Positions 3,138 through 61,829 of a stretch of 64,000 bases of DNA are shown here, piece by piece. A program made the position numbers and the translations under genes. The notes below the pieces were generated by a model. It had not been told where the DNA came from. It was given only the letters and a program-made list of their open reading frames with translations, and made no database searches. This stretch comes from Cinnamomum chago (taxonomy: Eukaryota > Streptophyta > Magnoliopsida > Laurales > Lauraceae): assembly GCA_038049695.1 (NCBI GenBank), contig CP142457.1:57036501-57100500 (forward strand). The letters run 5' to 3'. Within the stretch, counting starts at the first letter, position 1, and each line of letters starts with the position of its first letter.

Positions 3138-3457
3138 CATGGAAACAGAAATTCAAAATATATATATACCTCCTTAAGAAATGCTTAGATAAGAAATGCT
3201 TTTTAGCTGCAATTTTTCATCCCACCATCAAATGGGAAGGGAAGGAATAAAAAATTAACAAGAAAAAAATAGGTACCACATTAAAATATTGGATCATCTT
3301 CAAAACCCAACTTATTTATTACATTCAAAATAATCTTTACACTTTCAAAAACAAAAAACCAATACTATTCATTAAAAAAGATAAAAAAAAACTGTATCTA
3401 GCACACCATTCAAAAAATAAAAAATAAAAACAGTCTGTCCCATTGATTAATGTATCC
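2601..3457. other. Intergenic DNA with TA microsatellite and shared downstream flank
   Basis: No gene is seen. A TA microsatellite fills about 3092-3133. From about 3270 the sequence matches the DNA downstream of the second peptide gene (around 7173-7336), sharing 'ggatcatcttcaaaac' and 'ttacattcaaaataatct'. This marks it as part of the duplicated unit. Confidence 0.55.
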
Positions 3458-3581
3458 GGATATCCCCTGTTTGGACGAATCAAGGGGCCGCCACATGCGG
3501 GGGTGGAGGAAAGAAAAAGTGCATTTCTTATTCATCCGCCCCCGCATGTGGCAGCCCCTGATTCATCCAAACAGGGGATCC
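3458..3581. repeat. Foldback (inverted-repeat) element in the 3' flank of the first peptide gene
   Basis: Two arms of about 43 bp face each other: the left arm from about 3463 ('tcccctgtttggacgaatca') and the right arm ending at about 3579, whose complement reads 'tcccctgtttggatgaatca'. The loop is about 30 bp. The arms continue through a GC-rich 'ccacatgcggggg' core and differ at only a few positions, so a strong hairpin is expected. The second peptide gene has no such element at the matching place, so this is an insertion after the duplication. It starts about 100 bp past the stop codon of the minus-strand gene and could lie in its 3' UTR. Confidence 0.75.
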
Positions 3582-3683
3582 TCTTCCTTAATGAATCCAG
3601 ATTGCAAATGAGCGGCATCATATTTAATTTGAATCAATCCCAACAGCAACTTCCATGCATGCAGTAGATTAAAAAAAGCTTCG

Positions 3684-3992
3684 TTATTTATTGCTAGCCA
3701 TTCCGCGAGCAACCGCTGGAGGCTGGTAGGCACTAGCACGAGCCCGCGCATGACCGGCGAAGTTCATTTCCTGCACCGCCGGGCAGCTGGGACCAGGATT
3801 CCCGGGGACGTTGGTGCACCCAGAATGCCCCGGAGGTGCGTCAGAACCCTTTTGCAAGGACCCCAACAGAAGGCCGCCTCCTCCCTTCCTGACTCCTCCT
3901 TTGTCCTCCAGAATTCTGCATGCTTTGTATGGATGGATTCTCAGAAGAAGAAGAACGACAACAAGAGCTGCAACCTTGTTTAAGAGCCCCAT
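3684..3992 (-). CDS. CTNIP/SCREW-like secreted signalling peptide precursor, copy 1
   Basis: The frame encodes 102 aa in one exon. Residues 1-24 form a signal peptide with a hydrophobic core (VAALVVVLLLL) ending near YKA. A charged segment follows (CRILEDKGG), then GGLLLGSLQKG, and a C-terminal block with two cysteines in SGCTNVPG and GPSCP, then EMNFAGHARARA. From family knowledge, CTNIP (SCREW) phytocytokines are small secreted precursors with a CTNIP-like core and two conserved cysteines, perceived by the receptor kinase HSL3/NUT, with roles in defence and water loss. That assignment is motif recall, not a search. The tandem paralogue at 7559-7864 shows the same domain order, which argues that both frames are real. 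The start chosen is the only ATG before the signal peptide, with a TATA box about 60 bp upstream. Another small cysteine-containing peptide family is possible. Confidence 0.72.
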   Translation of the reverse strand: MGLLNKVAALVVVLLLLRIHPYKACRILEDKGGVRKGGGGLLLGSLQKGSDAPPGHSGCTNVPGNPGPSCPAVQEMNFAGHARARASAYQPPAVARGMASNK

Positions 3993-4021
3993 TTCTTGAA
4001 GGAATAGAGTTCTGATGAAGA

Positions 4022-4240
4022 AAACTAGAGGTAGTGTGGATATCTATCTACCTATTTATACCCAGAAGCTGGTCCTGCTTCAGGTCTCTAACTTGATCTT
4101 ATTCTATTAGCCTTACGATCAGTTTTTGACTATTGACCAGTGACCACTAGGATTTTCCACGAGGGGCCGATATTGGAATGGGTCATAAGAGGTGACGGTG
4201 GGTTTTGAACAAGACCTTTCATTGGCTCCCTATGATTCAA
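4022..4240 (-). promoter_or_regulatory. Promoter of peptide gene copy 1 with TATA box and W-boxes
   Basis: On the minus strand a TATAAATAGG box lies at 4051-4060, about 60 bp before the ATG. Two W-box cores (TTGAC followed by T or C) lie at 4126-4131 and 4133-4138 on the plus strand, inside a block (gatcagtttttgact) also conserved in the second copy at about 7975-7989. W-boxes bind WRKY factors and are typical of defence-induced promoters. That this promoter is elicitor-inducible is inference. Confidence 0.55.
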
Positions 4241-4250
4241 CAATTAAATT

Positions 4251-4770
4251 CTTTGTTCCTGGGTAGATCTTTGGGTCAAATTCCCATGCAGACATTTCTC
4301 ATTGTGGGATTTTTTTTTATTTTTTTATTTAATACTTCACAATAGTAAATCCACAGAGAGTCTGGACATAGAAGAATTCTTTTAGGGCCTCTTGTAACGG
4401 TTGTGTGCTGATCACTTGAATTTTATTTATCCTTGTATCATGTGGACACACTGTTCAATTTATCAAGTGTACCATACATGATTAATTAAGATAAACATGA
4501 CAAAGGGAGTGAAATTACATGTTTATAATATGTGATTAATCTGATGGTAGGCCCAATTTAAAATATATATATATGTTTAGTGGGCCCAACTCTGTTTAGA
4601 GTAAACTGTAACCTAGAGTCTATAGATTGGTAATGGGTTTGCATGAGTTTGAGGAGGTTTGGATTTTTATAGGTGAGGCATAGAAATCCGAATTCATCCA
4701 AAAATTAACTGTGATTATTCAAACGGCTCAGATTGAGTGATAGCACAAAAATCCATTGGTGGGATCCTGA
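4251..4770. repeat. Far-upstream flank of copy 1, duplicated at 2050-2600
   Basis: This is the partner of the block at 2050-2600, with the same phrases in the same order and no coding potential. It adjoins the promoter of the peptide gene. Homology between the two peptide-gene units themselves stops around 4235, so this block belongs to a separate, second duplication event. Confidence 0.6.
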
Positions 4771-4970
4771 GTCCTGACTATGATATACAGTTAAATTTCC
4801 AAATTGAAATGAAGACGTCTTATTGTTTTGTCACATCTACATATATATAATTTTACAAGAAGTCCCCAACGTTTACGTTTTGACGAATTATACTTCTGAC
4901 TTCATTGACGTCTGGTACAAGAAATTCTTTTCTCTAAAAGTCAATAAAAATGACATTAAATATAATTAAT

Positions 4971-5722
4971 TTTAAAAAATAATCTTCATGATGTAAATAA
5001 AATATATTAATGTTAAAGATGCCAGCACACCAACGTTGCGTAGTGTACGGCATGCACGTTAGTTTCACATATATATATATATATATATATCTGGAGATTG
5101 ATCCCTATGTCTTCAAGTTTAAAGTATTACTCTTGATGAGTAGCCCAAACTAGCACAAAAATAAATAATTTTAAAAAATAACATTTAAGTAAATAAAATA
5201 CGGGGGGTTTTACCAAAAAAAATCCCCTTAGACTTAGTGGAAACAAAAAAGGCCCTGAACAGGGGATCTCTCCGCTTGTTTCTCTTTTTCTTTTTTTGTT
5301 GTTTTGCTGAGCAGCAATATTGCAGCTCGTGACAAAGTAAGCGATGATATTGTTGCTCAGCAAAATAAATAAATAGAAAAAGAAGAAGAAACAAATGGCG
5401 ATATCCTTGCTTAGGGCCTTTTCGGTTGATGTTGAAATTTGAAGGCCTTTTTGGTCTTCACTAAGTCTAAGGGATTTTTTTTTTCCGTAAAACCGTCTTC
5501 TATATTGATGTTGAATATGCCAATACACTCAAAGTTGAGTGGTGTCAACATGTTAGTTTCTCACACATGCATGCAGGGAATCAATACTTGGGTCTTCTAG
5601 TTTCACAGACATGCCGGGGATCGATCTTCGTGTCTTCAAGTCTTGAACAATATCCCAACCTAGCAAAAACATGTTACAGATAATTGATTTAAAAAAAAAC
5701 ATGGTAAATAAAATGAAAAAAT
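4971..5722. repeat. Two-copy direct repeat (about 200 bp unit) split by a MITE
   Basis: The stretch about 5001-5200 and the stretch about 5496-5722 share the order 'atgcca..ac', 'acgttagtttc' or 'atgttagtttc', 'gtcttcaagt', 'ctagcacaaa' or 'ctagcaaaaa', and an end of the form 'taaataaaat'. A third partial end lies at 4971-5000. The foldback MITE at 5201-5495 sits between the two main copies. No gene is seen. Confidence 0.5.
5201..5495. mobile_element. Foldback MITE with long terminal inverted repeats
   Basis: The left end reads 'ggttttaccaaaaaaaatcc' and continues 'ccttagacttagtg'. The right end in reverse complement reads 'ggttttacggaaaaaaaa' and continues 'tcccttagacttagtg'. A second inner inverted pair around 5307-5366 (core 'gctgagcagcaatattg') lets the whole element fold on itself. 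It has no coding capacity. The target-site duplication is not clear because the flanks are themselves repeats, so the superfamily is left open. Confidence 0.6.
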
Positions 5723-6500
5723 AAATTCAGTAGAAGAATTGAGTTGCAGTATGTTTTTAAACTTAATACAAAAGTTATGCAATGGACATGGTCAAAACCT
5801 TATGTAAGGCAAAATTACTCAGTTTTGGCCGACGTTTAAAACAAGTGCAGTCCAATAAACATAACTGTTCTTTTTAAGAATTGCTCTCCTTCTGTCACTT
5901 AAGATGTATCTGAAATTAAGGGGGTAATTAGGTAGCATGTGTATTAGATATTGAGGTATGAAATTTAAAAATATAAAGATTATTCTAAGTGTTCTTATTT
6001 GAATTTAACAATGACTAATGGTTGGATAAGTCTACAATTAGGAAATAACTCCAGAACAACTTGGATTCCTCAAGGATGTATTTGTACATTACCGTCTCAC
6101 ATCACTGTAGATACACTGTAGCTACACTTTTCCATATATGCATGGATTCTCTCGTTCCGAGGAGGGGTGGGGATAGCGGGTTTCTGATTTTGCAAATAAT
6201 CTCATTAGAGGATAACTCACGTCATTCCTCTCAAAATCATCTCCCAACCAAATGTAGGAAATCCTCGAAAACGCGGAAAATTGCGAGGATTCCTTGCCCA
6301 TGCCCTTTGCCAAACGTGCCTCTAATAAGTAATTACCCTGGTTGAAAAAAAAAATTCTAATGGCAAGAAAATTTACTCTTTCCATCCAAACGTCAATGAA
6401 GCAAAACAGTCACACTACAACTTTACTTCTTTCATATAACTACATTTAAGTTAAAAAATAAAATAAAATAAAAACACAATCATGTCCTTTTTAACTATTA
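5723..6500. other. Gene-free intergenic DNA
   Basis: No gene, RNA or clear repeat is seen. Short frames around 6061-6385 lack any recognisable motif and overlap on opposite strands. Confidence 0.5.
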
Positions 6501-6780
6501 GGGCATGCTTGTTGCAAGCATTTTTGTCAGAAATTCACCTTATTTGGGAATTCACCTTGACAGAATGCAGTAGTTGTATGTGTTTCCTGTTTGAGAATTT
6601 GCTTAGTTGTCCAGTTTAAAAGTGACTTTTCACCAAATGATTTCTTTGAATTATGGGATTCAGAATGCTCATGACTGAATAGCCAGCATTCAGAGATTCT
6701 ACTTCTTGAGGGGGCAACCTTGAGATTCTCTAAATTCTGGAGACATGGTATCCCCTAGTGCTTGCAACCAAACATTGCCT
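6501..6780. mobile_element. Candidate Tourist-like MITE
   Basis: The left end 'gggcatgcttgttgcaagca' is matched by the right end, whose complement contains 'atgtttggttgcaagca'. The element is about 280 bp with no open frame. TTA precedes the left end, but a clean TTA is not seen at the right end, so the superfamily and exact right border are uncertain. Confidence 0.4.
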
Positions 6781-7172
6781 CTTCCTATGCTAAAGCAAAG
6801 AGAGGTAAAGGAGCATGTGTTTGTTTGACACGGGAAAATAAGACCCTAGGAGCACCCAATGTAAAATAAAAGAAAAGAAGCATAAGTCAATACAACGTGG
6901 CTTGGTCAAAGAACCACCCCTTTACAGTACATCTTTGAACTTTTCCCCCTTCAGTCTTCACCAATACCACAGAATCCACATGCAGGAAGCTATTCCTGTG
7001 GTACCAACCTACCATTGATGGGCCTCTCTCTCTCTTTCTCGCGCGCGCATGCACATGCACAGTTACTGAGAGCTACTTGTGTTTCAGCACATGGACGGTC
7101 AAAACACCGATCTAGACCCTCCATCTAACATTCCAACTCTTCTTTCTTTCATTTCCACATACCACATTATAT

Positions 7173-7336
7173 TTGGATCATCTTCAAAACACAACTCATT
7201 TATTACATTCAAAATAATCTGTACACATCATCAATCATAGAGCATTGGATCATCTTCCAAACCCAACTCATTTATTATATTCAAAATAATCTGTACACAC
7301 TCATCAAGCCTATAGCATAACTGTTTCTTTTAGCAA
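7173..7336. repeat. 82 bp tandem duplication downstream of peptide gene copy 2
   Basis: Two direct copies begin at 7173 and 7255, each opening with 'ttggatcatcttc' and containing 'aactcatttatta' and 'caaaataatctgtacac'. The same sequence occurs once at about 3289 downstream of copy 1, so the tandem doubling came after the two gene units separated. Confidence 0.7.
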
Positions 7337-7558
7337 TTCCTTGCTAATAAAACAATATTATCTATTAAAAAAAATGTGTATCCACAAGAATACATTAGCA
7401 ACCCATGGAAAAGAAAAAAAGGCAATCCATCCCACTTGTGAATGGAGACAGCAAATCAGCGGCACCGGATTTCATTTCCCAGAGCTTAAGATTCAAACCC
7501 AACTGCAACTTAATTGCATGCAGTAGAGAAAATATTAATTCCAACTGTTGCAAAAGAT

Positions 7559-7864
7559 TCATTGTTCATTGCTAGCCATGCGGAGAGGAATGATCGGTGG
7601 CGGGTAATAACCTGCACGAGCCAAAGCATTGCCAGCGACATTCATTTCCTTCACCGGGCAGCTGGGACCGGGCTTGCCAGGGACGTAGGTGCACCCAGAA
7701 TTCCCCGAAGGTGGGACGGGACCCTTTTGCAAGGTCCCCAACAAAAGGCCTCCTCTATTCTCCCATACTCCTTTGTCCTCCAGAACTCTGCATGCTTTAC
7801 TTGGATGGATGCTCACAAGAAGAAGAACGATGACAACAGCTGAAACCTTGCTCAAGAGCCCCAT
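7559..7864 (-). CDS. CTNIP/SCREW-like secreted signalling peptide precursor, copy 2
   Basis: A single-exon frame of 101 aa. It has a signal peptide (SAVVIVLLLVSIHP, end near SKA), then CRVLEDKG, GGLLLGTLQKG, PPSGNSGCTYVPG, GPSCPVKEMNVAG and a Pro/Tyr-rich tail. Every block of copy 1 is present in the same order and the spacing of the two C-terminal cysteines is kept. The core is CTYVP here against CTNVP in copy 1. Function, from family knowledge and by inference: an apoplastic phytocytokine processed from the C-terminal part of the precursor. Neighbours: same strand as copy 1, about 3.6 kb apart, with homologous 5' and 3' flanks, hence a tandem duplicate. Conservation of the secreted part suggests both are under selection. 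Confidence 0.72.
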   Translation of the reverse strand: MGLLSKVSAVVIVLLLVSIHPSKACRVLEDKGVWENRGGLLLGTLQKGPVPPSGNSGCTYVPGKPGPSCPVKEMNVAGNALARAGYYPPPIIPLRMASNEQ

Positions 7865-7889
7865 GATCTTAAAGGATTAGAGGTCTGAT

Positions 7890-8095
7890 GGAAAAACTAA
7901 AGGGAGTGTAAATGTCTATTTATTTATATATACTTGTTGCTCCTACTTCAAAGTTGGCATTCTATGAGCAATGTGATCAGTTTTTGACTCTTGAACACTG
8001 GGACTTTCCACGAGGGCGGGGATTGAATGGGTCGCAATAGATTACGGTAGGTTTTTTGAACAAGGACCCAAGGTTTTTCATTGGTGAAATAAAAA
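7890..8095 (-). promoter_or_regulatory. Promoter of peptide gene copy 2 with TATA box and W-box
   Basis: On the minus strand a TATATAAATA box lies at 7921-7930, about 60 bp before the ATG, as in copy 1. A TTGACT W-box lies at 7984-7989 within the block shared with copy 1. Homology to the copy 1 promoter continues through 'gggtcgcaatag' and 'gttttttgaacaag' up to about 8095. Confidence 0.5.

Positions 8096-11433: not shown

Positions 11434-11466
<33 letters not shown>
9995..11466. other. Gene-free intergenic DNA
   Basis: I see no supportable gene. The stretch ends in a TA microsatellite (about 11434-11466) that forms the left flank of the large inverted-repeat element. Confidence 0.5.
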
Positions 11467-11469
<3 letters not shown>

Positions 11470-12009
11470 AGGGGATCACACAGGCTGCAGCCTGTGTTAT
11501 CCCAAGCTGCACGCGTGCGACGGCCCAATGCACTAGCCCAACAACGCTGATGCATTTTTTCTGTTTCCCGCTCTCACGAAACAGTATTCCCCCAACTCAT
11601 TTCAAAATCGCCTATCCTCTGTTTTGCAAAACTCCTCTCCTCCGTCTCTCGTCTCCGTCTCTCGTCTCTCCTCTGAAACTCCTCTCCCTCTCGGACGACG
11701 ATCGCTGCCTCTCGGACGACGACGGCCAGTCGACTCTCTTCTCTCGTCTCTCATCTCTGTCTCTCTGTCTCTCGACGACGACCAGTCGAGGATCTCTGCC
11801 TCGTCTCTCGTCTCTGTCTCTCGACGACGGCCAGTCGAGGATCGCTGCCTCTCTGAAACTGCTCTGCCTCTGTCTGTCGTCTCTCTCTGCTGGGGTGTGC
11901 GACATGAGTTTCTCTCAAGTGAATGAATGACTGGATTTCGAAGGGTGCTCTTTTTTGGATTTCGAAGGGTGCTCTTTTTTGGATTTTCCCCTTCTGCGAA
12001 CTAAATGGA

Positions 12010-12088
<79 letters not shown>

Positions 12089-12279
12089 CGAACGAACGTC
12101 TCTTCCTCCTCGTCTCTCTCTCTCTCCTTTGAATCAACGACAAAAGCTCTCTCTCGGACGTCCCTCCCTCTCTCCAATGTGCTCTCCCGCTCTCGTCTCT
12201 CAACTTAGGGCTCGTCTCTTTGCTGGATGGAAATTTCAGGCTTCAATCCCCTGAGATTCTCCCTCTTGGCTCTCTCTCC
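11467..12279 (+). repeat. Left terminal inverted repeat of the Pack-MULE
   Basis: This is the arm matched by 15984-16756 in reverse complement. It holds several 'cgacgacggccagtcgag' units, a direct repeat of 'ggatttcgaagggtgctctt' at 11934 and 11959, and a CT microsatellite at about 12014-12077. The protein-like Ser/Leu frames here are read from CT repeats. Confidence 0.8.
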
Positions 12280-15983: not shown

Positions 15984-16200
15984 GGGAGAGAGAGACAAGA
16001 GAGGGAGAATCTCAGGGGAAGCCTGGAATTTCCGTCCAGCTGAAAGACGAGCCCTAAGTCGAGAGACGAGAGCGGGAGAGCACGTTGGAGAGAGAGACGA
16101 GAAAGGGAAAGACGTCCGAGAGAGAGCTTCCGTCGTTGATTTAGAGGAGAGAGAGAGACGAGGAGGGAGAGATGTCCGTTCACAGGGTGAGTTTCGCTCT

Positions 16201-16247
<47 letters not shown>

Positions 16248-16754
16248 GCTCCATTTAGTTCGCAGAAGGGGAAAATCCAAAAAAAAGCACCCTTCGAAAT
16301 CCAAAAAAGAGCACCCTTCGAAATCCAGTCATTCATTCACTTGAGAGAAACTCATGTCGCACACCCCAGCAGAGAGAGACGACAGACAGAGGCAGAGCAG
16401 TTTCAGAGAGGCAGCGATCCTCGACTGGCCGTCGTCGAGAGACAGAGAGACAGAGCCGAGAGACAGAGATGAGAGACGAGAGAAGAGAGTCGACTGGCCG
16501 TCATCGTCCGAGAGGCAGCGATCGTCGTCCGAGAGGGAGAGGAGTTTCAGAGGAGAGACGAGAGACGGAGACGAGAGACGGAGGAGAGGAGTTTTGCAAA
16601 ACAGAGGATAGGCGATTTTGAAATGAGTTGGGGGAATACTGTTTCGTGAGAGCGGGAAACGGAAAAAATGCATCAGCGTTGTTCGGCCAGTGCGTTGGGC
16701 CGTCGCACGCGTGCAGCTTGGGATAACACAGGCTGCAGCCTGTGTGATCCCCTC

Positions 16755-16756
<2 letters not shown>
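15984..16756 (-). repeat. Right terminal inverted repeat of the Pack-MULE
   Basis: Reverse complement of the left arm, with the same direct repeat of the 'ggatttcgaagggtgctctt' type and a GA run at about 16206-16243 where the left arm has a longer CT run. It ends at 16756 against a TA microsatellite (about 16757-16805). Confidence 0.8.
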
Positions 16757-16806
<50 letters not shown>

Positions 16807-20600: not shown

Positions 20601-23600
20601 TTCAAATCTCCTCCTATGAAGACCATCTCGCCTTGGGGTATCTCTAGTAGCACTCCTTCCAAGTCTTCCCAAAACTTCTCCTTATGTCCATCTCCTAAGC
20701 CCACCTGGGGGCATAAGCACTAATTACGTTCACTATCTCTTCTCCTAACACTAACTTAATTGCAATAATCCTATCTCCACATCGCTTTACACTAACTATA
20801 TCTTCCTTTAAGTCCTTGCTTACCACTATGCCGACCCCATTCCTCAATCTATTAAGTCCCATATACCATAACTTATACCCAGTCCTCTCAATCTCTTTAG
20901 CTTTTTGTCTCACCCACCTTGTCTCTTGCAAGCAAGCAATTGCGATTCGTCTCCTTTCCATTGTATCCACTACTTCCATAAGTTTCCCAGTTATGCTCCC
21001 AATGTTCCAAGTACCTAATCTCAGCCTTCTATTTTGGACTAGCTTCCTTACCCCCCACACTCGTCTCAAGTGTGAGGACCCTTGCCTATTTAGCATTGCA
21101 CCCGGGCGCCGATGCAGCGGTCCTTGCTCACTTATCACTGTACTCGGACCATACAGCGCGTCGCTAAGTAGGGGACGCCCCCACGAAAACTTGAACTAAA
21201 CTTTTGAAAGAAAAAAAAAATAATCAAAAAGCACTGAACCGAACTTTTGAAGGAAAAAATACACCATATTCTGTTTTTTTAAGGTAACAGTAACTTGTAT
21301 TAAACACCATATTCATCAATGGACTGAACTTTTGAAGAAACAAAAAGTTCAAAAAAAAAAAAAAACACACACACTAAACATAGAGGCCCTAACCTATAAA
21401 TCAAGGGTTAAGATGATCTCATGAGTGCAAGTAACATTCCACAATGAGACCTTTCCAACTCTATTATACATAATAGGCATGCATCCAGGTGCACCCCCAC
21501 AGGGCCCCCAACTGCGGATGGAAAACATTCTAAGCACACTGCTAAAAAAATCACTACATCTTCACTACTGTAATCTTCAGGATTTTGAATCAAATAGCAA
21601 AGGAATTTGGTTCAAGTCGCACAATTCAATCATAAATCTTGAAACCGTACATTGCAAAACATATGATTTAGGCAGATTGTGACATTTAGGCAGAGTCAAC
21701 CATGCTATATTTTTCTCCACTGAAAAATATACTTCTGTTCATCAGTAAACTAATAGGTTTTCAAAGGTTTTAAATCCTTATTAAACGTTCTATAGAAAAT
21801 TGGTTTGACTAGCCTATCAACAAAACCAAGATCAAAATTGGTCAGCTAGAAGAGAAGTTCATTTGGAGCGAAATTAGTCAACTGGCCAATAAACAAAACC
21901 AAGAGCAAAAAACCATCAGAGTTCCTGTTGATGGGTTTTCTTTCAGGGTTTTTTTTTTTTTTTTTTTTTATTTCCTCACCATAAGGTCTCATGTAGATTT
22001 TTTTTAGTAGTTACATACCATTTTAAGAAAAGTTCTTTTTATAGCGGTTAAAAACCTTTTTGAGAAAAGTTTTTTTGAAAAATGGAAGTATTGTGGTTTT
22101 CTTCACCGGCAAACTTATACATACTCCCTCTCCTCAAATTTGACAATCATCTCCTAAATTGGACACTGTACCAAGGTCCCCCCACCCACTCATAATTGTC
22201 AGTGACAATATTTATGAATCGCTGCCTGACATGACTGAGGAAGCTTGAATTTTGAAGTCACATTCCCTTCATGCATCTTCCCTTAAGAACAAAGGAAAGT
22301 GTGCTCTATAGTCATTCCCTGGACCAATGTAAGCTGCTTTGCCCTCTTGGCTCATCTCCGAAGGCAGGCAAAATTCTCCACAACCTGAGCATTTTGGCTC
22401 TAAGAACCACAAATTGAGCATTTTGGTTCTAAGAACATTACACGGCACCCAGAGCCTCTTCCCTTCCCCACACTTGCTGCATACAAGTTTCCTCCATGAT
22501 CCATCCTCCCCAAACCACCACCATCATTCATTGGAAAGCCCCACCTCAATCCCTAAACCCCCTTCCTTCTCTGGCTTCACAATCTTGTTCCATTCGACCA
22601 AGTGCATATTCTTCTCGTTCGTGCCCCTTCCATAAAAATTTCATAAAGACCTCTCTCAGTCTCAGATTGAATCTTGAAAATAGAGCAGCAAAACAAAGGA
22701 TATAATAAAGTCACTTTAAGGATTATCCTACCTCCACGGGAAATACTCTCTTTCGAGTCAAGAGCTTATGCTCCCCAGATCCCAAAGTGATTCTGATCAG
22801 GGATTAGCACCTAATGCGAAGCCTGCGTAACTAAATGGGAGTAAACCAACTTTGCAGGTGGCCCTGTCAGCAAGAAGATGAACCCTTTCCATTGAAATCC
22901 TGATTCCCACCATCAAGCTTTGAACTCATTCTGTCTAAGGCAACTGAGACTGGTTTGAAACCTCTGAAGATACCTTTGATAGATTTACCCTCCATTTTTT
23001 AAAAGTAATTGAACTATGATAATATGTACTTCATAAGCATCAGCTAAACACAAGCCTGTTGTACCATCAATAAACAAAAGATGAGTTACTTGCCTGCCTT
23101 TGCCTATCACAAAGCCATTAATCACGCACATGCCTTTCACCTTCTGAAAAAGAGCACCCAGGCCTTCTACTACAGTAGGAAAATAGAAAATGAGAATTCA
23201 GGTCACTTCGTCTAAGCCCTATGGATGCCTTAAACAGACGAGTGGGAGGACTATCACCAAAACCCAAAAAAAGGAAGATGGTTAAATGCAATCCTCCATC
23301 CAACTCTCTCCATTTAGACCTAAAGAATGCAATCATCCACCCAACTCTCTCCATGTAGACCTAAAGCATGTGTACTGTACACCACCAATCCACATAATCT
23401 TAGGCCTTTCATCAATTCTAAAAAACAACCCCAAGTTTCCATCTCTTTCTGGAATTATAAGTTCATCCACCACCAACACTACATCCAATATCTAATGGTC
23501 ATCCACAAAAGCTCCTTGGTGAGCCAATGACCGAAGGCATAACCCTTTGAAGATGACTGGCTAGCTCTTTAGATAAGAGCTAGTAAATGCATCCTACCAA

Positions 23601-26600
23601 ACTAATCAGTCTATAATGACTAAGCTCTGCACCTCACTCGAACAAATGGAATCTAAGTCACAAGAGTAGGGGTTTTTCTTTTTTGGCTAGAGTGGTGGAG
23701 TGCTACTAGGAATGATCCTTCAATGTGAGGACCAGGCAGAGGTGGACCCAGGAATTCTTCCTCGAGGGGGCCACCATGTAGAAAAAAATTTCTTAGGAGG
23801 TCATATATAAAAAAAAATTATATATAATTTTCAAAATATCTAGGGGCTTTTTTGAAAAAAAAAATTGTGTGTGTGTGTGTCTGTGTTTGGGGTTGGGGGG
23901 GGGCGAGTTTGGGGATGCATATGTAAAAAGTTATAAAACTTTGTAAAAAACTAAAGGGGATTTTAGAAATTTGGGAGAGGAGGGTAGAAGAAGGGGGGGT
24001 ACGCCAGTGGGACCAGGGATCAACCCTAGGTCAGTACTGTAATGCAAAGGTGCCTCAAGGCCCTCAACACAGATCTATCAGTATTCAGTGGTTTGGCCAC
24101 AAGACAAAAGTATTTTTCTCCTTATCACCTCAACCATGGAATTCAGCCAGCATGACCAAGAAATCTCATTTTTAAAACATCTCAACTAGCTTTGATGAAT
24201 GAGAAATTGAAGTCGCAACTTCTGTTAAAATATTGCATCTCTGACACATTTTGTTAAAGCAGTCACAACTTCTTACTTGGATCAACCCCTTCCTATCCAC
24301 AAAGCCAATCCTGATATATTAAAGGAAATGATACGCCATCCAATTTCAATCTACTAGCTGCACCATATATATACATATAAGGTCTCTCAAGATCCTCCAT
24401 TGACCTGCCAAATCTCTTGAGCCTGCTGATGTAATCGATCTTCCTTCTCATGTTGGCCATTCTATGAAAAAAAAATTATGTTTTTTTAAATCACCCTCCT
24501 CTAGTCATTGCGGTCTCAACTTTTGCCTCCATGATGCCTCTCCCATTTAGATCCAAAACCTCCTTTGTCAGAAGCACCCTTTTCTCTTTTGCCACTGGAT
24601 GTAGCCCTATCTTATTCCATTATGTGAAAGGAATCCATCTATGCAATACACTGCTCGAATCTGTAATCAATAATACCAAAATCATCTCTATTTCACACCT
24701 TTAACTTTGACTTTAGCATTTGAAGTTCCTTTGGCGGTTTGAAACCAACCTTGATTTGAACTTGAAATTCATTCCACCAACCCCTGACCTTGTGGGCCCC
24801 TTCCTATATATGACCCTTCCTATATATGAGTGAGTAGTTCGAACAAAGCCTGTCGCATGAACTGGCTTTGGAAGGATTATTTTTTATAGGTTTATTGGTC
24901 CCAGAGACAGAACAGTTTATGGCTTAAGATACTAGCTCCATTAGCTACACTCCAGTGGTTGGATTCACTACTATTGAGGCTAGCTGATTACAACACATGT
25001 CTACAATACTAGCGAGTTGCTTCCTGGCAAAGGCTTCCTTCTTGTAGATGTGAAAATTTCCCTCTAATCCAATTCCACATTGGCACACCCCTGCCCCATG
25101 CAGACTCCTTTAAATGTCTACTGGGCTTTCTTTTAGAGGACCACTACAAGTTTGAATTCGACCATGACTGACAAGAAAAGATGGTTTGGAAAACTGCTAA
25201 TTTTGGCATAATTAGCATCCAAAATCCTCCCCAGACCCCTCACAACAAGTCCACCACATCATCACTCCAGTACAACAAAAGGAAAGAGCAAAATCCTCAT
25301 AGCACATCATCATCTTCCCCCTACTGCCCTCACTGCAATCTTTCACTGATACGGTTGAGGACTGAGAGTAATTGATAGTCACGTGTCGGCCATGATGAAC
25401 TGACTATTTCTGCATAATCAAACCTCGATCATGAGAAGCTGGCTGGGTAGAGGTTCTTTCTTATCTACAATGGTGAATGGGTTATCAAAAACTATAAAAT
25501 GCATCACTGCTTCCATGCTTTAAGGACAGTAGCCTCCAATATAAACCTACCAAGTTCAATAAATTATTTGTCAACTGTCTTACAGTTGACAGTTATCATG
25601 TCCCCAGTCCTACTTCAATAGCCTCGAAGAGTTCCTCATACCAAATATGGAAGTATCTAAACTAGGCTCTTGTTCTAATTTCATGCATAGAGGGCCTCTA
25701 TTTTTTCTAGGAGCCAAACATCTCTGTCCATTGTACTCCAGCCTCAACTAGCACATACCCCAAAAGGGTATAATCAGCACTACATCTCCCAGGCTCTAAA
25801 TTGTTTTGAGTCTATATCACAAAAAAGGTGAAAAAACACCTGCAACAAATCAGTTTTTAAAAAAGGTAAACTAGTTTTTCAACCAGACTTCTAACTAGAC
25901 TTCTACACAACTGACACGCCTATTGTCTGCAGTCTGCACTCTTCACCTTTGATAAAGAAAAAAAGACCTACTACCTTTCTTCTTGGGATCCTTTGTTGCT
26001 GCTTGAAAAAATCTATCTGCCTTTTGCCTGCTCGTCAGCGCAGCAATTTGGAAGAGGTCACGTCCAGTTTTCTGGCCCAAATCAAGGCAGGTTTTATGAT
26101 GCAAATTCTAATATGTAGAAGAAAAGGCAGCTCTGTAAAATATTCCACCTTCCAATTTCCACACCACCCCATATGCATGTTGGTACCCTCCTTTTCTAAC
26201 AATACATAAACCACTAGCAACTTGAGGCAAATCAGAATAAAAACCCTAATTATTAAATAAATTCTACGTAGATCCATGACCAATCAAGTAACAGTTACAA
26301 AACATGAATCAAATAAAAGAAGCAAATAATAAAATTCAAGCAGTAACATATTAACTTTTCCAACAATCCAAAGCGCAACAAATCCTATCAGTCTCTGAAT
26401 TACATGAAACCTGTCAAGCAATGAAAAGTAACAAATCTACAAGTAATGGAAGATAACAATCATTGTTAAAAGGTTAATTCTCACTCAGATTAGAAAAAGA
26501 AAAACTGATGAGTAATACCTGAAAATCTCATCCCTATCAAGCATGAAGATCCCGGGCGCCTCCCCATTAACACCATCAATAACAACAACTGTCCCAAGCC

Positions 26601-27525
26601 TCCATCTCTCCCCTTCCTCCCACATGTTCCCAATCTCCCTCCACTTCCCACTTTCCAAATCCATCACCGCCCCATCGCGATAATGCTCATCCACAGGAAA
26701 AACCCCAGAAATCTTGCGACAATTCCCGTACCCGCCCATCACCCAGAACTCCTTCTCTCCGGCCAAGAACCCAATACACCCGGCGCGGAACCTTGGGAGA
26801 TTTTCCTCCAGGACCCAATAGTCCTTCCCGGAATCAAACCGCTCGACAGAGCTCAGCCGAGTGCCAGCAGCCCCAAAGAGCGCATGGCGGGAGCCGCCCC
26901 CTGCGATAAGGATGGAATTGGAGGAGGGGATGGCGGCGCAGGCGAAGCTACCGCGGGGAGTGCGCATTGGGGATAGGGACTCCCAGACGAGGGAGGATGC
27001 GGTGAGGTCGAGGCGGAGGGTGGCGGCAGAAGGGTGGGGGCAATTAGGGTAGGAGCGATTGTCGAAGAGAGATCCGCCGAGGACGTATAGGTGGCGTCCA
27101 AGGCAGACGGCGGAGAAATTGGAGAGGCCATAGCTGTGGGGGCTGCAAGGGGCGGGGGGGAGCGACCGCCAGGCGCCATGGCGGGGATCGAAGAGGTAGG
27201 GGGAGACGAGGGAGGGGTCTTGGGGGAAGATGCAGAGGATGGTTGGGTGAGGATTGGTGGGATGGAAGAACCAACGGCTGAGATGGAAAGGGAGCTTCGA
27301 TGAGAGGAAGGTTTTCCAAGATTTGGAGGTGGGTTTGAGGCGATCGTGGTGCGAAAAGGGGACGAGGGAGAGGATGATGGAGGATATGTCGTCTGGGAGG
27401 CCTGGAATCAGAGTTTCTGCATTCGAAGTTAGGGTTAGGGTTAGGGTTTCCTGTGAGTAGGAGGAGGAGGAGGAGGAGGAGGAGGAAGAAGTAGGAGAAA
27501 TAGGCATTTCATCTTTCCTCTTCAT
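17612..27525 (-). CDS. OR23: F-box/kelch-repeat protein, OR23 type
   Basis: Two exons: 27525-26519 (1007 nt) and 17897-17612 (286 nt). They join in frame across an 8621 bp intron (GT at 26518, AG at 17898) to give 430 aa. The junction restores an Arg codon: [24 protein letters not shown]. The N-terminus carries a poly-Ser run made by a GGA/TCC repeat, then an F-box ([17 protein letters not shown], about residues 38-75). Kelch units follow ([24 protein letters not shown]) and the family-typical end [14 protein letters not shown]-box/kelch proteins are substrate adaptors of SCF ubiquitin ligases: the F-box binds SKP1 and the kelch propeller binds targets. I chose the ATG at 27525 (MKRKDEMP); the upstream in-frame ATG at 27642 precedes unconserved residues. 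The OR23 name is from recalled resemblance; targets unknown. Confidence 0.88.
18181..21190 (-). mobile_element. Near-full-length RTE-type LINE in the intron of the F-box gene
   Basis: The 3010 bp element runs right to left. It is bounded by 19 bp direct repeats ttg-act-aacttttgaaa type (18162-18180 and 21191-21209, two mismatches). In order it shows an endonuclease (GTWNIGS near 21010, [13 protein letters not shown] near 20610), reverse transcriptase (GPDGCPIE near 19610, [22 protein letters not shown] near 18960) and a C-terminus ([14 protein letters not shown], then [14 protein letters not shown]). The 3' end is a short ttggtttgg tail, as RTE elements use instead of poly-A. The single reading frame is broken into about six frames, so the copy is inactive, but sequence and target duplications are well kept. 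Same strand as the host gene. Confidence 0.88.
21900..25100 (-). mobile_element. Degraded L1-type LINE relic in the F-box gene intron
   Basis: Minus-strand translation in shifting frames gives, in L1 order, WWNEFQ (about 24770), [13 protein letters not shown] (about 24430), a SFPLIYQD piece, [10 protein letters not shown] (about 23085, the position of the FADD box, degraded), SRGGRI (about 22740) and FLWSNG-like remnants near 22600. Many stops and shifts interrupt it. From family knowledge this order matches the linker, reverse transcriptase and thumb of plant L1 ORF2. Borders are not defined and no target duplication was found, so coordinates are approximate. It is clearly older than the RTE copy next to it. 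Confidence 0.55.
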
Positions 27526-27554
27526 CTTTGCTGTGTGTGTGGCAATGGGGGCCA

Positions 27555-27563
27555 ATTTATATA
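27555..27563 (-). promoter_or_regulatory. Possible TATA box of the F-box gene
   Basis: TATATAAAT on the minus strand lies only about 30 bp before the chosen ATG. If used, the 5' UTR would be very short; otherwise the start lies elsewhere. Weak evidence. Confidence 0.25.
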
Positions 27564-27599
27564 CGTTTTTGTTGGCTATGTTTTCTGGCAGTCTATCGG

Positions 27600-30500
27600 T
27601 GAGGTGGGTGAATAAAAATGCTTTTAGATAATTTACAGACAACCCCTTATATGAATTATATTACAGTCACAAATACTATACCCTGTATAAGTTTTTCAAT
27701 GTTGGGTTGAAGTGGTGGCCTACCCCAATTGGTAATGGAGAGTATGTGTTGGGGAAAATGGTACAGCAGAAAATGCCTCTGGTCGATGGTCTATTACCAT
27801 GCAGAAACATCAATTATGCAGGATTTACGTGGTTCGACAATATTACTTAGGTTTATTAAAAAAAAATAACTTTTCCTACTCGACCCTATGTGGTTTAGCT
27901 ATCACATGCACAAAGGGAGATAGAGTTCTCAATCTCTTCTAAAACCAATGGATCGGCCTTCTAAAACTGAAATACAAAACAATAATCCAACAATATGTAT
28001 AGGTTTATAAGTATTTACAGGAGTCGCTAGCTAAGGATTTGGGTGGAATCTAGTTTATATATATATTTGTTAGGTGGGGCTTTTGCATATGAAAACATTT
28101 GAATGCGATTTTGATGGGACCATCAAAGAGGTGGGGCTTCGTCTAAAGACCCAGAACCGCTTCAATTAAAAGGTTTGACCATGATGTCTCTGCATGCAAG
28201 ATTATCTGAACGATAAAATTTAAAAGGCATTAAACTTGCATAACGCACTTGGTATAAGACATTTGAAAGTTCATGTTGTATGGTAAAATTATGAAAATGC
28301 TCTTAGGTGTAACTTGGATTAGCTTAAATTTTGGACGAACGCATGAAATTACTACTAAACCAAGTTAATTTTTCAAATTAAACATTTAACCTTAAATCCA
28401 AACCATGTTAGATCTTCTTCTATTTAATAGATTACACCAGGTTTTGTCGATTGGTAGCCAAGATGGTCTGTTATTACATATGCCCCACTCAGATGTTTTT
28501 GTTTTTCAATTTTCTCCAGCGGCGGCCTACTCAAGGAAAATTTCGCTGGGTGTGTCTCTGCTGGGTCAAACAACAAATTATATCTTCTATATGTGTAACA
28601 ATATCAATTTTGTTTATCTGCAACAAAACACAACTGAAAGATACAGTTAGATAGGCTTAGTTTACCAAGTTCTTTGGGATGGTAGGATTTTTTGATATAA
28701 GAAAAAAAGAGTACTACAAACACAAGGAGAAACCCACAATCTAAATAAGTCACATACTAAATGATCAGAGAAATGTCTTCTCAAAATGCCATAAGGTCAC
28801 TGAGCTAATTGGAATAGTGGGAGTCCCTTTGCATCATGTCCCCTCCAACAAGCCATAAGCTACTGAAATTTGGTGTGGTGAGATGCTAAGTTTGAGTCTG
28901 AAAAATAATGCTATCCTGACCCTTCAAGATTAGAGGTGTTCCCGAGCCTAGACTGGTAAAGCCTGGTTAGTCGCCGGGCTTAATTTCAGGACCAGATATG
29001 TCCACGGGCTTGAAAGTTAGGCACAGGCCCAGTGCATTTGCAAATTTATATGTTGTTTGGGCTAATTATATTGGTTCAGTCGAATCCTCAAGAACAAAGC
29101 GTCTCAAGCCTGGCACATTTAGCTATCAGGCCAGAAAATGAGTCAATGCCCAGCCCACAGTTCTAAGAACACTGTCCACATCGAGCTCAAGTAGACTGGG
29201 CTCGAGTCAGGCCTGGGCTGCCCTACCCCATGAGCACCTCTATTCACAATATCTTGCCAGCTATACACAGGAATTCGGCTTTGACTTGGTAAGGTGAGTC
29301 AAATGGGTCGAACTTAATCTGAGTGGATATTACTCGGTTAAGACTCGCCCGAGCAACTCGACTCATTACTTTCCTAGTCAATTTGGGTTTTTGAGCTTTT
29401 AAACAAAGGTCAAAATTGGGTTGGCCGTTTGCTTGTCCATGAACTGATGAACATCTCCATGCACCACCAGGAACATATACCACAATTCCAGAACGTTCGT
29501 GGACCTAAAAAAACAACAATTCCCTGTTCTGAAAGGGAATCAGTGCACCAATTCTGGCCACTGAATGTACGGCATAAAGAGTTAGTGCAGTCATATGGAT
29601 ATAAAGAGCTACATCCAGATTCCAAAGCTGTTGCTGGGCCCACTAAGTTTTGAACCCAGGATATATCTTTTAGTCCAAAGCCCAGTTACTTGCAAACTTA
29701 AATCACGATCAAGGTTGGACTCTGATTTATACCTGGCTTCAATGTGAAATTTGTAAATAGATTGGTTGAATTCGAGCCTGTAGAGTAATCACAAAGACCC
29801 AGCTCCACTCCAATCTCAACCCATTGGGCCCATCTTACTGCCCAAGTCTGGCCAATTGGATATTGGCAACCTTACCCTATTCAGTATGCCCGAATGGCCT
29901 CTGTCAGCTCATTCAGGACATAAACGTATCCTAGCAAACCACCTGATGTTATATGACTCTTGTCCACACCCATCTAAACTTATAATCCGGTCCAGGTTCA
30001 CATAAAGTCCTAGGCTCAGACTCGAATTCAAACACTTGTAGGAAAGGAATCTCCGAAGGATGGCAAAACTGCATCAGCCCTCCCACAGTCCCACCAAAAT
30101 GACCCTACATGGAATTCTCCGCGTCAAATTGATGAAGGACAAGTGGACGACTATAATAGCACGTTTGTGTAGCACAAGAAAAATTGATAATAGATTTAAG
30201 TAGACTTTTGTTTTACCATGGAATGCTCCACTTTTCATATAGCCTCTTATCGAAAAGGTTTTTTTCGCAGATTTCAAAAAACTAAGATAAAACAAGGTTT
30301 GCCGTTTAACAAAATAAAAAATTCATACCAAACGAAGGAAAATGAAAAATAAAGTTTGTGAAGAAAAAAAAAAAAAAGTACCCTATATGAAGATGGAGAG
30401 GGATGATAGGAACATCTCTCTATTGTACATATATGGTGATGGCACAACTTTTGAGAGCGAGCCCAATATACCATACCAAGATTTATAGTGCTTGGAGGCC

Positions 30501-36478: not shown

Positions 36479-39400
36479 ATGGCTGGGAGTGTGAGGGAGG
36501 ATAATGGAGCTGGTAGGCCTTCAGAGGGGATCTCAAGTGGACAGCGGTGCCAGTCTGGCGATTCCTTGTCGGAATGGCGTTCCAGTGAGCAGGTGGAAAA
36601 TGGAACCCCTTCTACTTCACCCCCTTACTGGGACACTGACAGCGACGATGATTGCGGTACTCTCTCCCCCTCTTCAATTTATTGTGACTGTCATTTCTTA
36701 TTGCCACGTTTGTGAAGCCCTATAACCAAGGGTTACAAATTAGCAGAGGGCACCTTGGTCATACCATCCCTTGACACCGTGACTGGCTAACAATCATTAT
36801 GGTATATGAATACTATTGAGCAATTACAGTATTCTCGCACCTCCTCCTCCAGTTACATGTGTTGAGCTGACTTCATAGGGCTTGCTCGTAACTAGTGAGG
36901 TAGTTGATGTGGAACATAACATCAGTTTTCAAGTTATGGTTGTTAAATAGATTTTGACACATTATAATCATGCCCAGTTTTGTGAATTGCGAAAACGGAA
37001 ATCAGTTACCAAGATGCAGCTTGGATTAAGTGGTTGATTCCTACAGTGAGATTTTGCATTATTATTCAAAATCAAGAGCTTAATATCAGTCCAAAGATAA
37101 CATGTTCTGGTGTGTATTGTCTGCTTTGGAATATCATGGTTATATATTCTGACATGGGGCTGCTTATGAAGCATGACAAATGCAGTCTGACATGCTGTAA
37201 TACAAGCTGAAATATATTTATATATTTGTATTTTTTCTCTTGAAAAAAATCGCACCCCGTTGTCTTAACATGTCAGTTGTATTTGCCAGTGTGTCATATC
37301 GGTTGGTGAAAGTAGGGTATTGTTTTCGTAGGCGAGTGAGAAGCAAGTGAGGCGAGCCTGCAGAAAGCGAGCCGGGAGCGATCGAAGTCGATAAATGCTT
37401 GATTGTATTCTTGACTGATTCAATCGATAACGAGAAATAATGGTACCTCGACTGGACATAAGTAATATGAGTCTGGCTGATATAGTCTAACAAAAATAAT
37501 TAAAATTTTCTTGATGAGGAGATTCCTTCGAACTCTCATCACTGATGTGATTTGAGAAGAGGAATCTTTTTGGTTCCTTTCTACTGGCGGTGCCACGAAA
37601 GGTGTAGGGAGTGGGAGCAAGTACTAATTAACCGCTTGGTCACTTGCCTATCCAGATAGCTCAAGTGGTGAGGCACTTCCCTTTCCATAGAAATAACCAA
37701 GTATTGATCTTTGGGTCTATCACTGATGGTTATGCGACTTGGGTAGGGGAGGGGTGTGTGAGTATTTACAGAGCAAAATAGATAAATAGTAAAGCTCCAC
37801 AATTTTAGTTCTTTTTGTTGAAGTAAGTGGTACCGATATGATTTCACATTTTGGTTTTTGTTGTCATTAGTTTATGTTCAATTGAGTGGTTAGATTGAAG
37901 TTCCTCTATACGTTTCATTTTCAAAACTGAAACGATCCAAATGAATAGTGTGTCACTTCTTGCTTGTATTCAAATTCATATGCATACCAAATCCTTAAAA
38001 ACTTCAGTTTTAACAATTCAATTTATAACTTATTCTGATTGTATAAATATTGGTATTGCTTGGTATTGTGGCCATTTTTTTAAAAATGAGAATCGTATCG
38101 CAAATCATTCTTACCCATAAATCGAATCGAATCGCGAATTGTATCGCGAGTCAAAGGATTTTTATTTTTCTAGTAAAAATGAAAAATAATTAAAAATTAA
38201 AAGAAAAAAGTAATTATTCATAACCATCCATTTTTCCATTTATAGTATTATAAATACAATAACAAATAAGTCTATCATACAATTATATCACGAACATCAT
38301 GACATATATATGAAATAAATGATGTGTACATAGTTAAATATATATATATATATATATTTACTATCTTCAAAATATAAAAAGAAAAAAATCCAAACCATCA
38401 ATCTTACACAATAGTATATCTCTTGAAGTTAAGAAAGTGTTCGTGAAGAAAAAACCAAAATAGATTAAAAAAGAAGAAGATATAGACAAGCACCATACAT
38501 ACAGTTGAAAGCTTTAAGTAAATGCGTGTTCTTTATTCATCTTGAAACCCTCATCGAAGCTGCAAAAATTCTTAGGAGGTTTTGTTAACTACTAAATAAT
38601 GTTTTAAAAATAAAAGCGCTAAAAGAAAGAAAGAGAATAAAGAAAGATAAGATTATTAATATTAGCTTATTGGTCATAGCTATTCTCTCTTAGTCGAATA
38701 GCAAGATTTGATGAAAGGAGTATCGAATCGTAGGATTCACATTTGAATCTTAAGATTCATTTGTAAATGGGATTCGTTGCATAGATACGAATCGTTTTGC
38801 TTAAGATTCGGGATATGAATTGTAGGATTCTGATAACTATGATTGTGGCATTGTTTTTTCATTTTGGAAGTAGAAGATGTTGGGAAACCAAACTAGGTCT
38901 TAGTAATTAAAATTTAGCAATGCAAACTTGGCAAGCACTTAATCATTGTAAACGATAATGTTATTTACACTATGAGTGGTCTTAATGTTTCTATAGGGGC
39001 TAAACCTTCCGAGCTATATGGAAGATTCACATGGAAGATAGAAAAATTTTCACAAATCAACAAAAGAGAACTACGAAGCAATGCATTTGAGGTTGGCGGC
39101 TACAAATGGTATGAGACCCTTGCATATTTGGTCTTCACTCTAGCATTTACATTTCTTCATTCCTTTGATGCTGACTTGTATAAGGTAGGTCATCACCCAG
39201 TGCGGTCCCGCCGAAGCAGGGTCCTTGGAGGGTCCAGACCGGAGACAGACCTAACCTTTGGCAATTTTGCACAAAGTGGCTGCTCTCAGGTCTTGAACCC
39301 GCGTTATGCTGACTTGTAGAATTTTTCTTATTTACATAGATAACAAGCACTCTCATGATTTCTTAGGCACCAGAAGGTTTCTTCATAGTTCACAATGACA

Positions 39401-49100: not shown

Positions 49101-51888
49101 GTCATGCTCCTCTCTGGCAATCTTCAGTGCAAATGGATCCCCCCCACCTACAAACAGTTTGAAACTAAACTTTGATGGAAGTGCTCGTGGTAACCTTGGT
49201 CTGGCTGAGGTGGGAGGCATTATTCGGAATGATATGGGCCATCCTATCCTTTCCTTCTCGGGGCCTGCCGGTTTCAACTCAGCAAGTGTCGCAGAATTAC
49301 CGGCTATTAAAGCCAGCCTTAGAGAGGTAAAGCGATTGAACATTCAAATTTTGATTATTGAAGGGGACTCCTTTTGTGCAAATCCGGTGGGCATCGGGAG
49401 TTGCAAAAGCACCTTGGAAGGTGGACAGTGTGGTTGGGGAGATTTCTGATCTAGCGAAAGGCATCCAAGTATCCTTCTCTCATATTGACGGAAGTGCCAA
49501 CTCAGAAGTGGATTGTCTAGCCAAAGAGGGTGCTTCTCGCCATGATCTGAGGGTTATTTTGTATCCCTTGTAATTTTGTCTTGTTCTTTTTATTGTTGTT
49601 TTGGGATGGGGCTTGGGTCCAGAGTTTTTTTGGTCTGGGCCTTGGTTTTCAGCCTTCTTTTGTCACAGTATACCCTTCCTATACTGTATAGTTTTCTTCT
49701 TTTAATCAAGCACCTTTTAAAAAGAAAAAGTTTCAGTTTTTTTGTTAGTTTAAGGCCATTGTAACTACAGTTAAGCCAGCCTTAAGTAACTCTTCCGAAG
49801 GGCTTACAACAGTCGAATTGCAGTTGTTTCTAACCTTTTTGTTACTATATTCAATATTTTCTTGTGATTGTTATTATTTTATAGGTGTGGTCATGAGGCT
49901 CACACCTAATGTTTTGGGAAATTGAAATGCCTCTCCTCTTGCTTCATCATTTTAAACATTGGTTCATTCTAGCAGGCCACTGCCACTTATGGGCTACGTT
50001 AACTATTTTGTCTATAGTTGTGGACGGCTGCATACATTTTAATGCCCAGTTAATTTCTAGAAGCCTTAGCTGATTTTATGTACATGGAATGAGACGTTTG
50101 ACACATTGTAGTATCTTCACAAACATTCTATTATTAATTCAAAATGTGCCAAAAGAGTTTGCTCGCGTTACTCCTTTTACAAAAGCTCATATACTTGGTA
50201 ATTTAGTTCTTTGTTTTGTTTCTTGAAAATGAATTAGATTTAATATATTACTTTCGGTTGTTTCCAATCGTCTCTTCATCTTTCATGTTGCAGCGGTAAA
50301 ATTGAAGCTGCATACCAGGAGGCAGTTGCTCTTAAGAGACAGGAGGAGCTCATACGTGAGGAAGAGGCAGCAGGGCAAGCTGAAAGTGAGCTCAAGGCAA
50401 AGCATGGAGCAACTGAGAAGGAAAAGCGTGCTAAGAAAAAACAGGTTTGCATCTATTTGTTCTTCATGAATCATCTTTCCATGGGTCCATGAAACTCCTC
50501 CCACCCCACCCCGCCCCAATTTGGTGTGGAATATTCTCTAGGAATTTCTAGTTTCCTAACTCCTTAGATAACCTAGGATAATGGTATGTTGTCAGAGAAA
50601 TCCTATCAAAATTTTGGTATGGTATGAATAGTAGGGGCAGTCAACAGACTGGATTCAGGCCAGTTTCATATGGGCACTGATCTTGTATGTATCAGGTTTA
50701 TAGGCTTGAACCTGAGTCTGGGTCTGACATGAACCCTAGAACCTGGATTTGAGCCTGCTTGGTGAGTGTTATCTGAGGCCTGATCTGAACAATTGGTGGT
50801 GATTTTTCCGTTTTGCCCATGGAATGTTCAGGCAATCCAGTGCAGAAAAATAGGAAAAATGTAAAAAGTAGTAATATATTAGAAATTCTAAAACGAAACT
50901 AGAAGTGCATATTTGCATTAAAGGTAAATTAGACTAGAATTATCTATTTCCACCTTTCTACAATTGGTCATGCAACATAAAAAATTGCGTCTTGCATTTT
51001 GGGCGAAACAATAATTTTATTGATTCTTGTCAGAAAGATGATTAGAAATGCAAAGACCAGTTTGGAACCAACCCCCTCTTGGTATTTTTAAGTTGAACAT
51101 TGATGATAGTTTTGTTTGAAGTGTTCAATGAGGTGTTGGTGGCGTCATCAGAGATTGGAATGGAATCAGTATTAGAAACTTTTCCGGGTTAGGTAAATTA
51201 GACTAGAATTATCTATTTCCACCTTTCTACAATTGGTCATGCAACATAAAAAATTGCGTCTTGCATTTTGGGCGAAACAATAATTTTATTGATTCTTGTC
51301 AGAAAGATGATTAGAAATGCAAAGACCAGTTTGGAACCAACCCCCTCTTGGTATTTTTAAGTTGAACATTGATGATAGTTTTGTTTGAAGTGTTCAATGA
51401 GGTGTTGGTGGCGTCATCAGAGATTGGAATGGAATCAGTATTAGAAACTTTTCCGGGTTAGTGGATTCTTATGATGCAAACGAAGCTGAGTTGTTTGCTA
51501 TTCTAATTGGGTGTCGTGAGGTGCGTAGAATTGGAGGTCTTAATCCTATCCTTGAAGATGATTCCTTTTTTTTTTTTTTTTCTGTCCAATGGGGTTTCGG
51601 AAAAGCTATTCATCCTTGGAGGCTAGCGGATTGGGTGGAGGAGATCCAAGTTATTTCAAGTCTGTTGGATGCTTCTTTCCATCATATTTTATAAGAGGCT
51701 AAAACTATGGCTGATGGTCTGGCCAGGGAAGGTTTTTCACACTTATAGTTTTTTTTTATGTAGAAGTTTTTTAGGTGTTTTCCTTGTTCGTTGTAGTTTT
51801 CATTGTGTCTTGCTTATGCCTGTCTGTTTTGGTGAAATCAAATTTTATCTTTTATAAAACAAAGATGATTTGTAAGATATCTTACAAA

Positions 51889-61815: not shown

Positions 61816-61829
61816 GTATGGACAACTAC

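Follow-up and report, generated by a model that had tools for sequence, protein, structure and literature searches.

Two tandem genes of Cinnamomum chago, probable CTNIP/SCREW-type precursors, belong to a large and mainly locally duplicated family

Are two neighbouring genes for short two-cysteine proteins a pair of diverging signalling ligands, as the original prediction for this locus proposed, or ordinary members of something larger? The genes, here called A and B, lie on contig C7 of the 1.06-Gb genome of Cinnamomum chago, in a stretch of 64,000 nucleotides (C7:57,036,501-57,100,500) that was analyzed as a whole and is referred to below as the window. Our answer, to which we give a probability of roughly 0.8, is that A and B are working CTNIP/SCREW precursors and a tandem pair within a family that owes its growth chiefly to local duplication, and that the receptor HSL3/NUT has multiplied in this genome as well. 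By themselves A and B are ordinary family members; the unusual point is their setting, in which the ligand family and the receptor are both numerous.

Both genes are intact open reading frames (ORFs) on the minus strand, at 3684..3992 (A, 102 amino acids with a CTN core) and 7559..7864 (B, 101 amino acids with a CTY core), just as had been claimed, and their products are 66% identical over 102 amino acids (tblastn, E 2.5e-37). Gene A is covered by the family profile, and gene B is present in both family alignments. The LEDKG, LLLG-LQKG, and CTNVP/CTYVP blocks were found as predicted. The two-cysteine core reads CTNVPGNPGPSC in A (3783..3818, minus strand, C59 to C70) and CTYVPGKPGPSC in B (7658..7693, minus strand), with 10 residues between the cysteines in each. 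Residues 1 to 25 of both proteins (3918..3992 in A and 7790..7864 in B, minus strand) are hydrophobic and signal-peptide-like, a call made from Kyte-Doolittle hydropathy with no cleavage site predicted, and both products have the build expected of a CTNIP, a short precursor (<150 amino acids) with such an N-terminus. Beyond the second cysteine each carries 32 residues with an E-M-N-x-A-G block. A tblastn search of the window with family genes returned two copies only, A and B, and no third family gene, and a six-frame scan for the pattern CTx[IVL]P...C gave three matches, of which A and B are two.

A Pfam scan assigned neither protein to a family, and a PDB sequence search with the A protein alone gave no match. 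A full-length profile built from 15 members and run against 177,635 PDB sequences matched 9w1s_C (E 5.7e-4) and 9wum_B (E 2.1) and nothing else, while a 31-position core profile matched the same two chains only, at E 2.1e-6 and 0.048, respectively. Chain A of both entries is the AT5G25930 protein, given as AtHSL3 in PMC13056886; the profiles containing A and B thus match just two HSL3-bound peptides, that is, they show homology to known HSL3 ligands. The sequence of 9wum_B, GPVRGSGRNGCTNIPRGSGRCHN, is 23 residues long and has its cysteines at positions 11 and 21, which fits CTNIP4 48-70 with C58 and C68 (PMC9191895). The filter applied to CTNIPs in the same paper, two cysteines 9 to 11 residues apart, is passed by A and B, with 10 in both. 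Relatives at C6:17.9-18.4 Mb turned out to be nearly canonical (RGPVPPSGDSPCTYVPGHGGGDCHS), and a single-sequence search with the near-canonical member L076 brought up the same two PDB chains (E 0.012 and 0.93), between which ranked an unrelated enzyme at E 0.093. In a literature search for six core strings, five were absent and the sixth, PPSGPSPC, was found only in one CLE paper. The original prediction had staked the family name on sensitive profile searches, in which a lack of matches would tell against it; such searches do give matches, and the two HSL3-bound peptides together with the HSL3 clade in the genome (see below) support the assignment.

The tandem duplication is borne out, and flanking DNA was duplicated along with the genes. 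The unit containing A (3592..4213, minus strand; the gene, its 5' region, and part of its 3' region) is 72% identical to that containing B (7439..8064, minus strand), and further 3' blocks correspond as well (3274-3342 to 7160-7226 and 3288-3342 to 7244-7298). Across the whole coding sequence, A and B give a ratio of nonsynonymous to synonymous substitution rates (dN/dS) of 0.57; a value near one, combined with a lack of transcripts, had been named beforehand as an outcome adverse to the prediction, and the estimate lies away from one, though the bootstrap interval (0.33-1.02) just touches it. By part, the ratio is 0.88 in the signal region, 1.03 in the linker, 0.35 in the tail, and 0.18 in the core (C59-P71), the last coming from just two nonsynonymous and three synonymous changes. 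The core of A and B looks constrained, and the pair alone is compatible with relaxed selection outside it. Two further observations concern the surrounding DNA. The sequence upstream of A (about 4233-4770) is repeated at about 70% identity to the left of A, at 2041-2556, with no adjoining gene, and is perhaps a trace of a third, lost unit; downstream of A, a 118-bp near-perfect palindrome (3462-3579, 85% self-complementary) is perhaps a small mobile element.

We searched the genome six times with different family members as the query and kept a place if it reached E ≤0.001 in at least one search. The union comprised at least 97 distinct places encoding relatives, a lower bound, as for any large family under this method, so that the "diverging ligand pair" of the original prediction is too narrow a description. 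The places form clusters on four contigs, at C6:69.4-70.0 Mb (39 places), C4:30.8-31.5 Mb (24), C3:122.0-122.5 Mb (18), C6:17.9-18.4 Mb (9), and C7:56.79-57.04 Mb (5, A and B included), plus two singles at C6:67.2 Mb and C1:102.1 Mb. Not all of them are genes, several being without a start or having stops or frameshifts. We tabulated 62 ORFs with a start codon, one of which extends to the edge of the sequence examined, and left out as degraded or start-less L025, L026, L027, L028, L065, and the minus copy of L041. In 60 of the 62, the core and its surroundings are free of frameshifts. The exceptions are L061, where a frameshift just past the core removes the tail, and L004 (C7:56.798 Mb), closely related to A, in which a frameshift inside the core puts the second cysteine out of frame. 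Six further places that were examined keep the two cysteines, among them L083, which has no clear start. By eye, the ORFs around the ligand genes include retroelement-type ones, and of the distinct ORFs within loci L001-L042, none of the longest 50 (≥130 amino acids) looked like a receptor. No earlier report of such an expansion was recognised from titles and abstracts, in results that were partly off topic and did not cover the per-species counts of PMC9191895, so comparable expansions may exist in other species.

The core itself varies across the family. The third position is N, Y, H, or S, and the cysteine spacing in the 62 ORFs is 9 to 11 in 47, 14 in 11, 13 in 2, 12 in 1, and 22 in the frameshifted one. 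Compared with its usual place, the first cysteine is shifted a few residues towards the N-terminus in the 11 ORFs with a spacing of 14, in the 2 with 13, and in 2 others with 11, in forms reading PPCRSDGSN, PPCSSDGTS, and PPCRSGG. Since this C6 subfamily falls outside the 9-to-11 range in all but the last two ORFs, we name it CTNIP-derived and not CTNIP. Canonical and moved-cysteine genes stand side by side in an array at C6:69.837-69.962 Mb (L032-L040), which has a period of about 14.3 kb and an opposite-strand pair per unit, the canonical gene on the minus strand and the moved-cysteine gene on the plus strand; one unit of the array breaks this pattern, the plus gene not being found in L033 nor the minus gene in L034. 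Units L032, L033, and L035-L040 are 98.9 to 99.7% identical over matches of at least 2.6 kb, with private mismatches and gaps.

A tree was built from the 31 different proteins of the first genome search; L004 and L028 were left out, and it does not include the C4 members or the near-canonical members at C6:17.9-18.4 Mb, which came from later searches. It splits into clade I (10 proteins, A and B included) and clade II with support of 100/99. The CTN state changed at least three times even when well-supported branches alone are counted, so the toggle between Asn and Tyr is recurrent. The two codons are one base apart, AAC/TAC in A/B and AAT/TAT in the pair at C6:18.21/18.26 Mb. The recurrence weakens the candidate role of the third residue as a switch particular to A and B; the Asn/Tyr difference, which may change receptor preference as the original prediction suggested, is not an event special to the pair. 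Pooled dN/dS values (from pairs that are not independent) were 0.15 for the core and 0.42 for the whole protein in clade I (32 pairs), and 0.50 and 0.52, respectively, in clade II (125 pairs), so that the core stands out as constrained in clade I but not in clade II.

The promoters of A and B have the TATA box TATAAATA in a common position, as had been predicted, starting at -68 from the ATG in A (4053..4060, minus strand) and at -64 in B (7921..7928, minus strand). Gene A has a tandem W-box, GGTCAATAGTCAA, of two boxes (4126..4138, minus strand), and gene B a single one, AGTCAA, at -125 (7984..7989, minus strand), which takes the second of the tandem positions, the first reading GTTCAA and being no W-box. 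A WRKY-type element shared by the two promoters is therefore supported, while the predicted W-box block is common to both with one box fewer in B. For the tandem pattern, RGTCAANRGTCAA, the window contains one match where 0.08 would be expected; the pattern is present at 7 of 41 family loci, always upstream of clade I genes (A and six relatives, 7 of 11 genes), six times at -111 to -154 and once at -332; it was absent from the 600 bases upstream of the 35 other first-search genes, many of them near-copies. Clade I includes a pair with a dS of 1.4. A single W-box at -94 to -125 is retained in B and in the relatives C6_69423275 and C6_18261645, and L004 has one at -257. Two or more W-boxes occur in 6.8% of random 300-bp pieces of the window. 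In the C6 array, W-boxes are missing from the 300 bases before the ATG of the minus-strand genes, which counts against the W-box as a general rule of the family.

With the AtHSL3 ectodomain as the query, scoring covered 75 of 1573 candidates, and the resulting count of at least 13 HSL3-type loci is therefore a lower bound. The 13 fall into two places, with eleven at C2:108.32-109.00 Mb and the other two at C1:90.78-90.79 Mb. For every one of them the bit score is higher against AtHSL3 than against HSL1 or HAESA, and in a tree of 21 rows all form one clade with AtHSL3 (100/99). As an internal control, three loci of 42% identity (L048, L057, and L058) grouped with HAESA and HSL1; two of 39% (L059 and L060) fell outside both groups, and the remaining hits at or below 39% were left unplaced. 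Five of the 13 have a full-length leucine-rich repeat (LRR) ectodomain, 50 to 51% identical to AtHSL3. The other eight match in two pieces (main pieces 44 to 47% identical) and have in-frame deletions of 70 or 166 residues, six being without residues 421-490 and two without 325-490 (9wum_A numbering). The kinase motifs VAVK, HRD, and DFG are present in all six loci examined that far (L043-L047 and L049 with L078), and the glycine-loop sequence GSGGSGKV is visible in two receptor loci. In L043 and L044, on C1, an intron seems to begin after GY[VI]AP. No intron interrupts the kinase in the four C2 copies examined (L045-L047 and L049 with L078), so the ancestor of the C2 group may have been a copy that lacked introns. 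Ectodomain dN/dS is 0.40 to 0.85 for receptor pairs with a dS of <0.6, except for L055-L056 (C2:108.32 and 108.45 Mb), the most shortened copies with the 166-residue deletion, for which it is 1.52 (25 nonsynonymous and 5 synonymous changes). This excess suggests relaxed or positive selection.

On the most likely reading, A and B code for CTNIP/SCREW ligands of HSL3-type receptors and are induced by stress. What bears on this directly are the ORFs, the profile match, the ligand and receptor counts, the conserved promoter element, and the low core dN/dS of clade I; secretion, processing, receptor binding, output, and stress induction are carried over from the Arabidopsis work (PMC9191895). In the proposed mechanism, WRKY factors would activate the genes during stress through the W-box element that precedes the TATA box; after secretion, the precursor would be processed around the LxSLQKG-PxG-S-G-C...C region; and the two-cysteine core would bind an HSL3-type receptor kinase at its ectodomain and bring in a SERK/BAK1 co-receptor, with calcium, reactive oxygen species, and mitogen-activated protein kinase signalling as the output, as for Arabidopsis CTNIP4. 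Several points weigh against this account. Single-sequence PDB searches are weak (no match for A, E 0.012 for the near-canonical relative), so the link to CTNIP/SCREW depends on the profiles. The bootstrap interval of the A-B dN/dS reaches 1.02. Genes A and B have 32-residue tails, whereas the two solved Arabidopsis peptides stop two residues past the second cysteine, so processing may differ. In PMC9191895, CTNIP signalling did not cross between the species tested, which makes the receptor partner of A and B an assumption, and that study found no direct evidence that CTNIPs act in immunity.

It is possible, at odds of somewhat better than one in four, that the genome holds a diversified code of many ligands and many receptors, in which toggled and moved-cysteine ligands would be matched to full and LRR-deleted HSL3 copies in private pairings and some short receptors or moved-cysteine ligands would be decoys or antagonists. 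If so, the growth of both partners would mark coevolution and not two unrelated tandem expansions; from one genome these two cannot be told apart. We consider it unlikely that A, B, or both derive from CTNIPs and have departed from HSL3, acting on another receptor or as antagonists of family members. The variable third residue, the moved first cysteine of one subfamily, and the differing lengths of the receptor copies would allow for this, whereas the core of A and B is precisely the constrained part and matches HSL3-bound peptides. Slightly less probable still is that A and B are decaying, functionless leftovers and that the clusters arose as a side effect of local duplication in a genome rich in repeats. 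The upper end of the A-B interval (1.02) and the ratios of the signal region and linker point that way, as do the degraded relatives (L004, L025-L028, L065, and the minus copy of L041) and the retroelement-type surroundings. Decay is at odds with two frames open for about 100 codons, with a core dN/dS of 0.18 in the pair and 0.15 in pooled clade I, with a promoter element kept across clade I members at a dS of up to 1.4, and with the 60 tabulated ORFs whose cores are free of frameshifts. That A and B are an unrelated class of small secreted peptides converged on CT[NY]xP is very improbable, for although such short, proline- and glycine-rich sequences without a Pfam family, or a PDB match for A alone, might suggest it, the sole two PDB profile matches are both HSL3-bound peptides and the C6:17.9-18.4 Mb relatives are nearly canonical.

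Elsewhere the window contains a Kelch/F-box ORF (26488-27660, minus strand; the F-box just under the cutoff), a partial MATH domain (38918-39316, plus strand) and a weak endonuclease match (20698-21195, minus strand), both under the cutoff, and a reverse-transcriptase-like remnant (48904-49446, plus strand). The stretches 11436-12279 and 15985-16788 are inverted copies of each other, about 850 bp long, 88% identical, and rich in simple repeats; a perfect 271-bp tandem duplication lies at 50922-51461 and a diverged tandem repeat cluster (75 to 89% identical) at 61815-62942.

The CTNIP/SCREW precursors favoured here can be compared with known systems. Arabidopsis has five CTNIPs (AT1G06135, AT1G06137, AT2G31335, AT2G31345, and AT3G23123; PMC9191895), likewise short precursors with a hydrophobic N-terminus and an LQ[KR]G-x-GxxGCT[NY][IV]P...C core with cysteines 9 to 11 apart, and their locus tags suggest neighbouring pairs like A and B. 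In contrast to those five genes, there are at least 97 places here, CTY cores occur beside CTN ones, a subfamily has moved its first cysteine, and the A/B tail with its E-M-N-x-A-G block is absent from the two solved peptides. The HSL3/NUT receptor kinase, AT5G25930, shares a clade with the five loci that have full ectodomains; the difference here is a set of at least 13 loci, eight of them with deletions. Poaceae also have several HSL3 paralogues, yet no clear CTNIP has been found in them (PMC9191895), whereas in C. chago ligands and receptors are both numerous. The SCOOP peptides of Brassicales, for which 1,097 putative precursors have been counted across many proteomes (PMC11331138), are likewise a many-member phytocytokine family; being a different one, with an SxS motif and the receptor MIK2, they are a precedent for a large ligand family only.

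More than 40% of CTNIPs are unannotated (PMC9191895), and the family size found here shows how big a family of short, easily overlooked genes can get. How duplicating peptide signals and receptors keep or change their specificity is an open question, and the HSL3-CTNIP module has been put forward as a tool for studying it (PMC9191895). The ligand places and receptor loci of this genome, which differ in the third core residue, the position of the cysteine, and the number of LRRs, amount to a ready-made library of variants for it.

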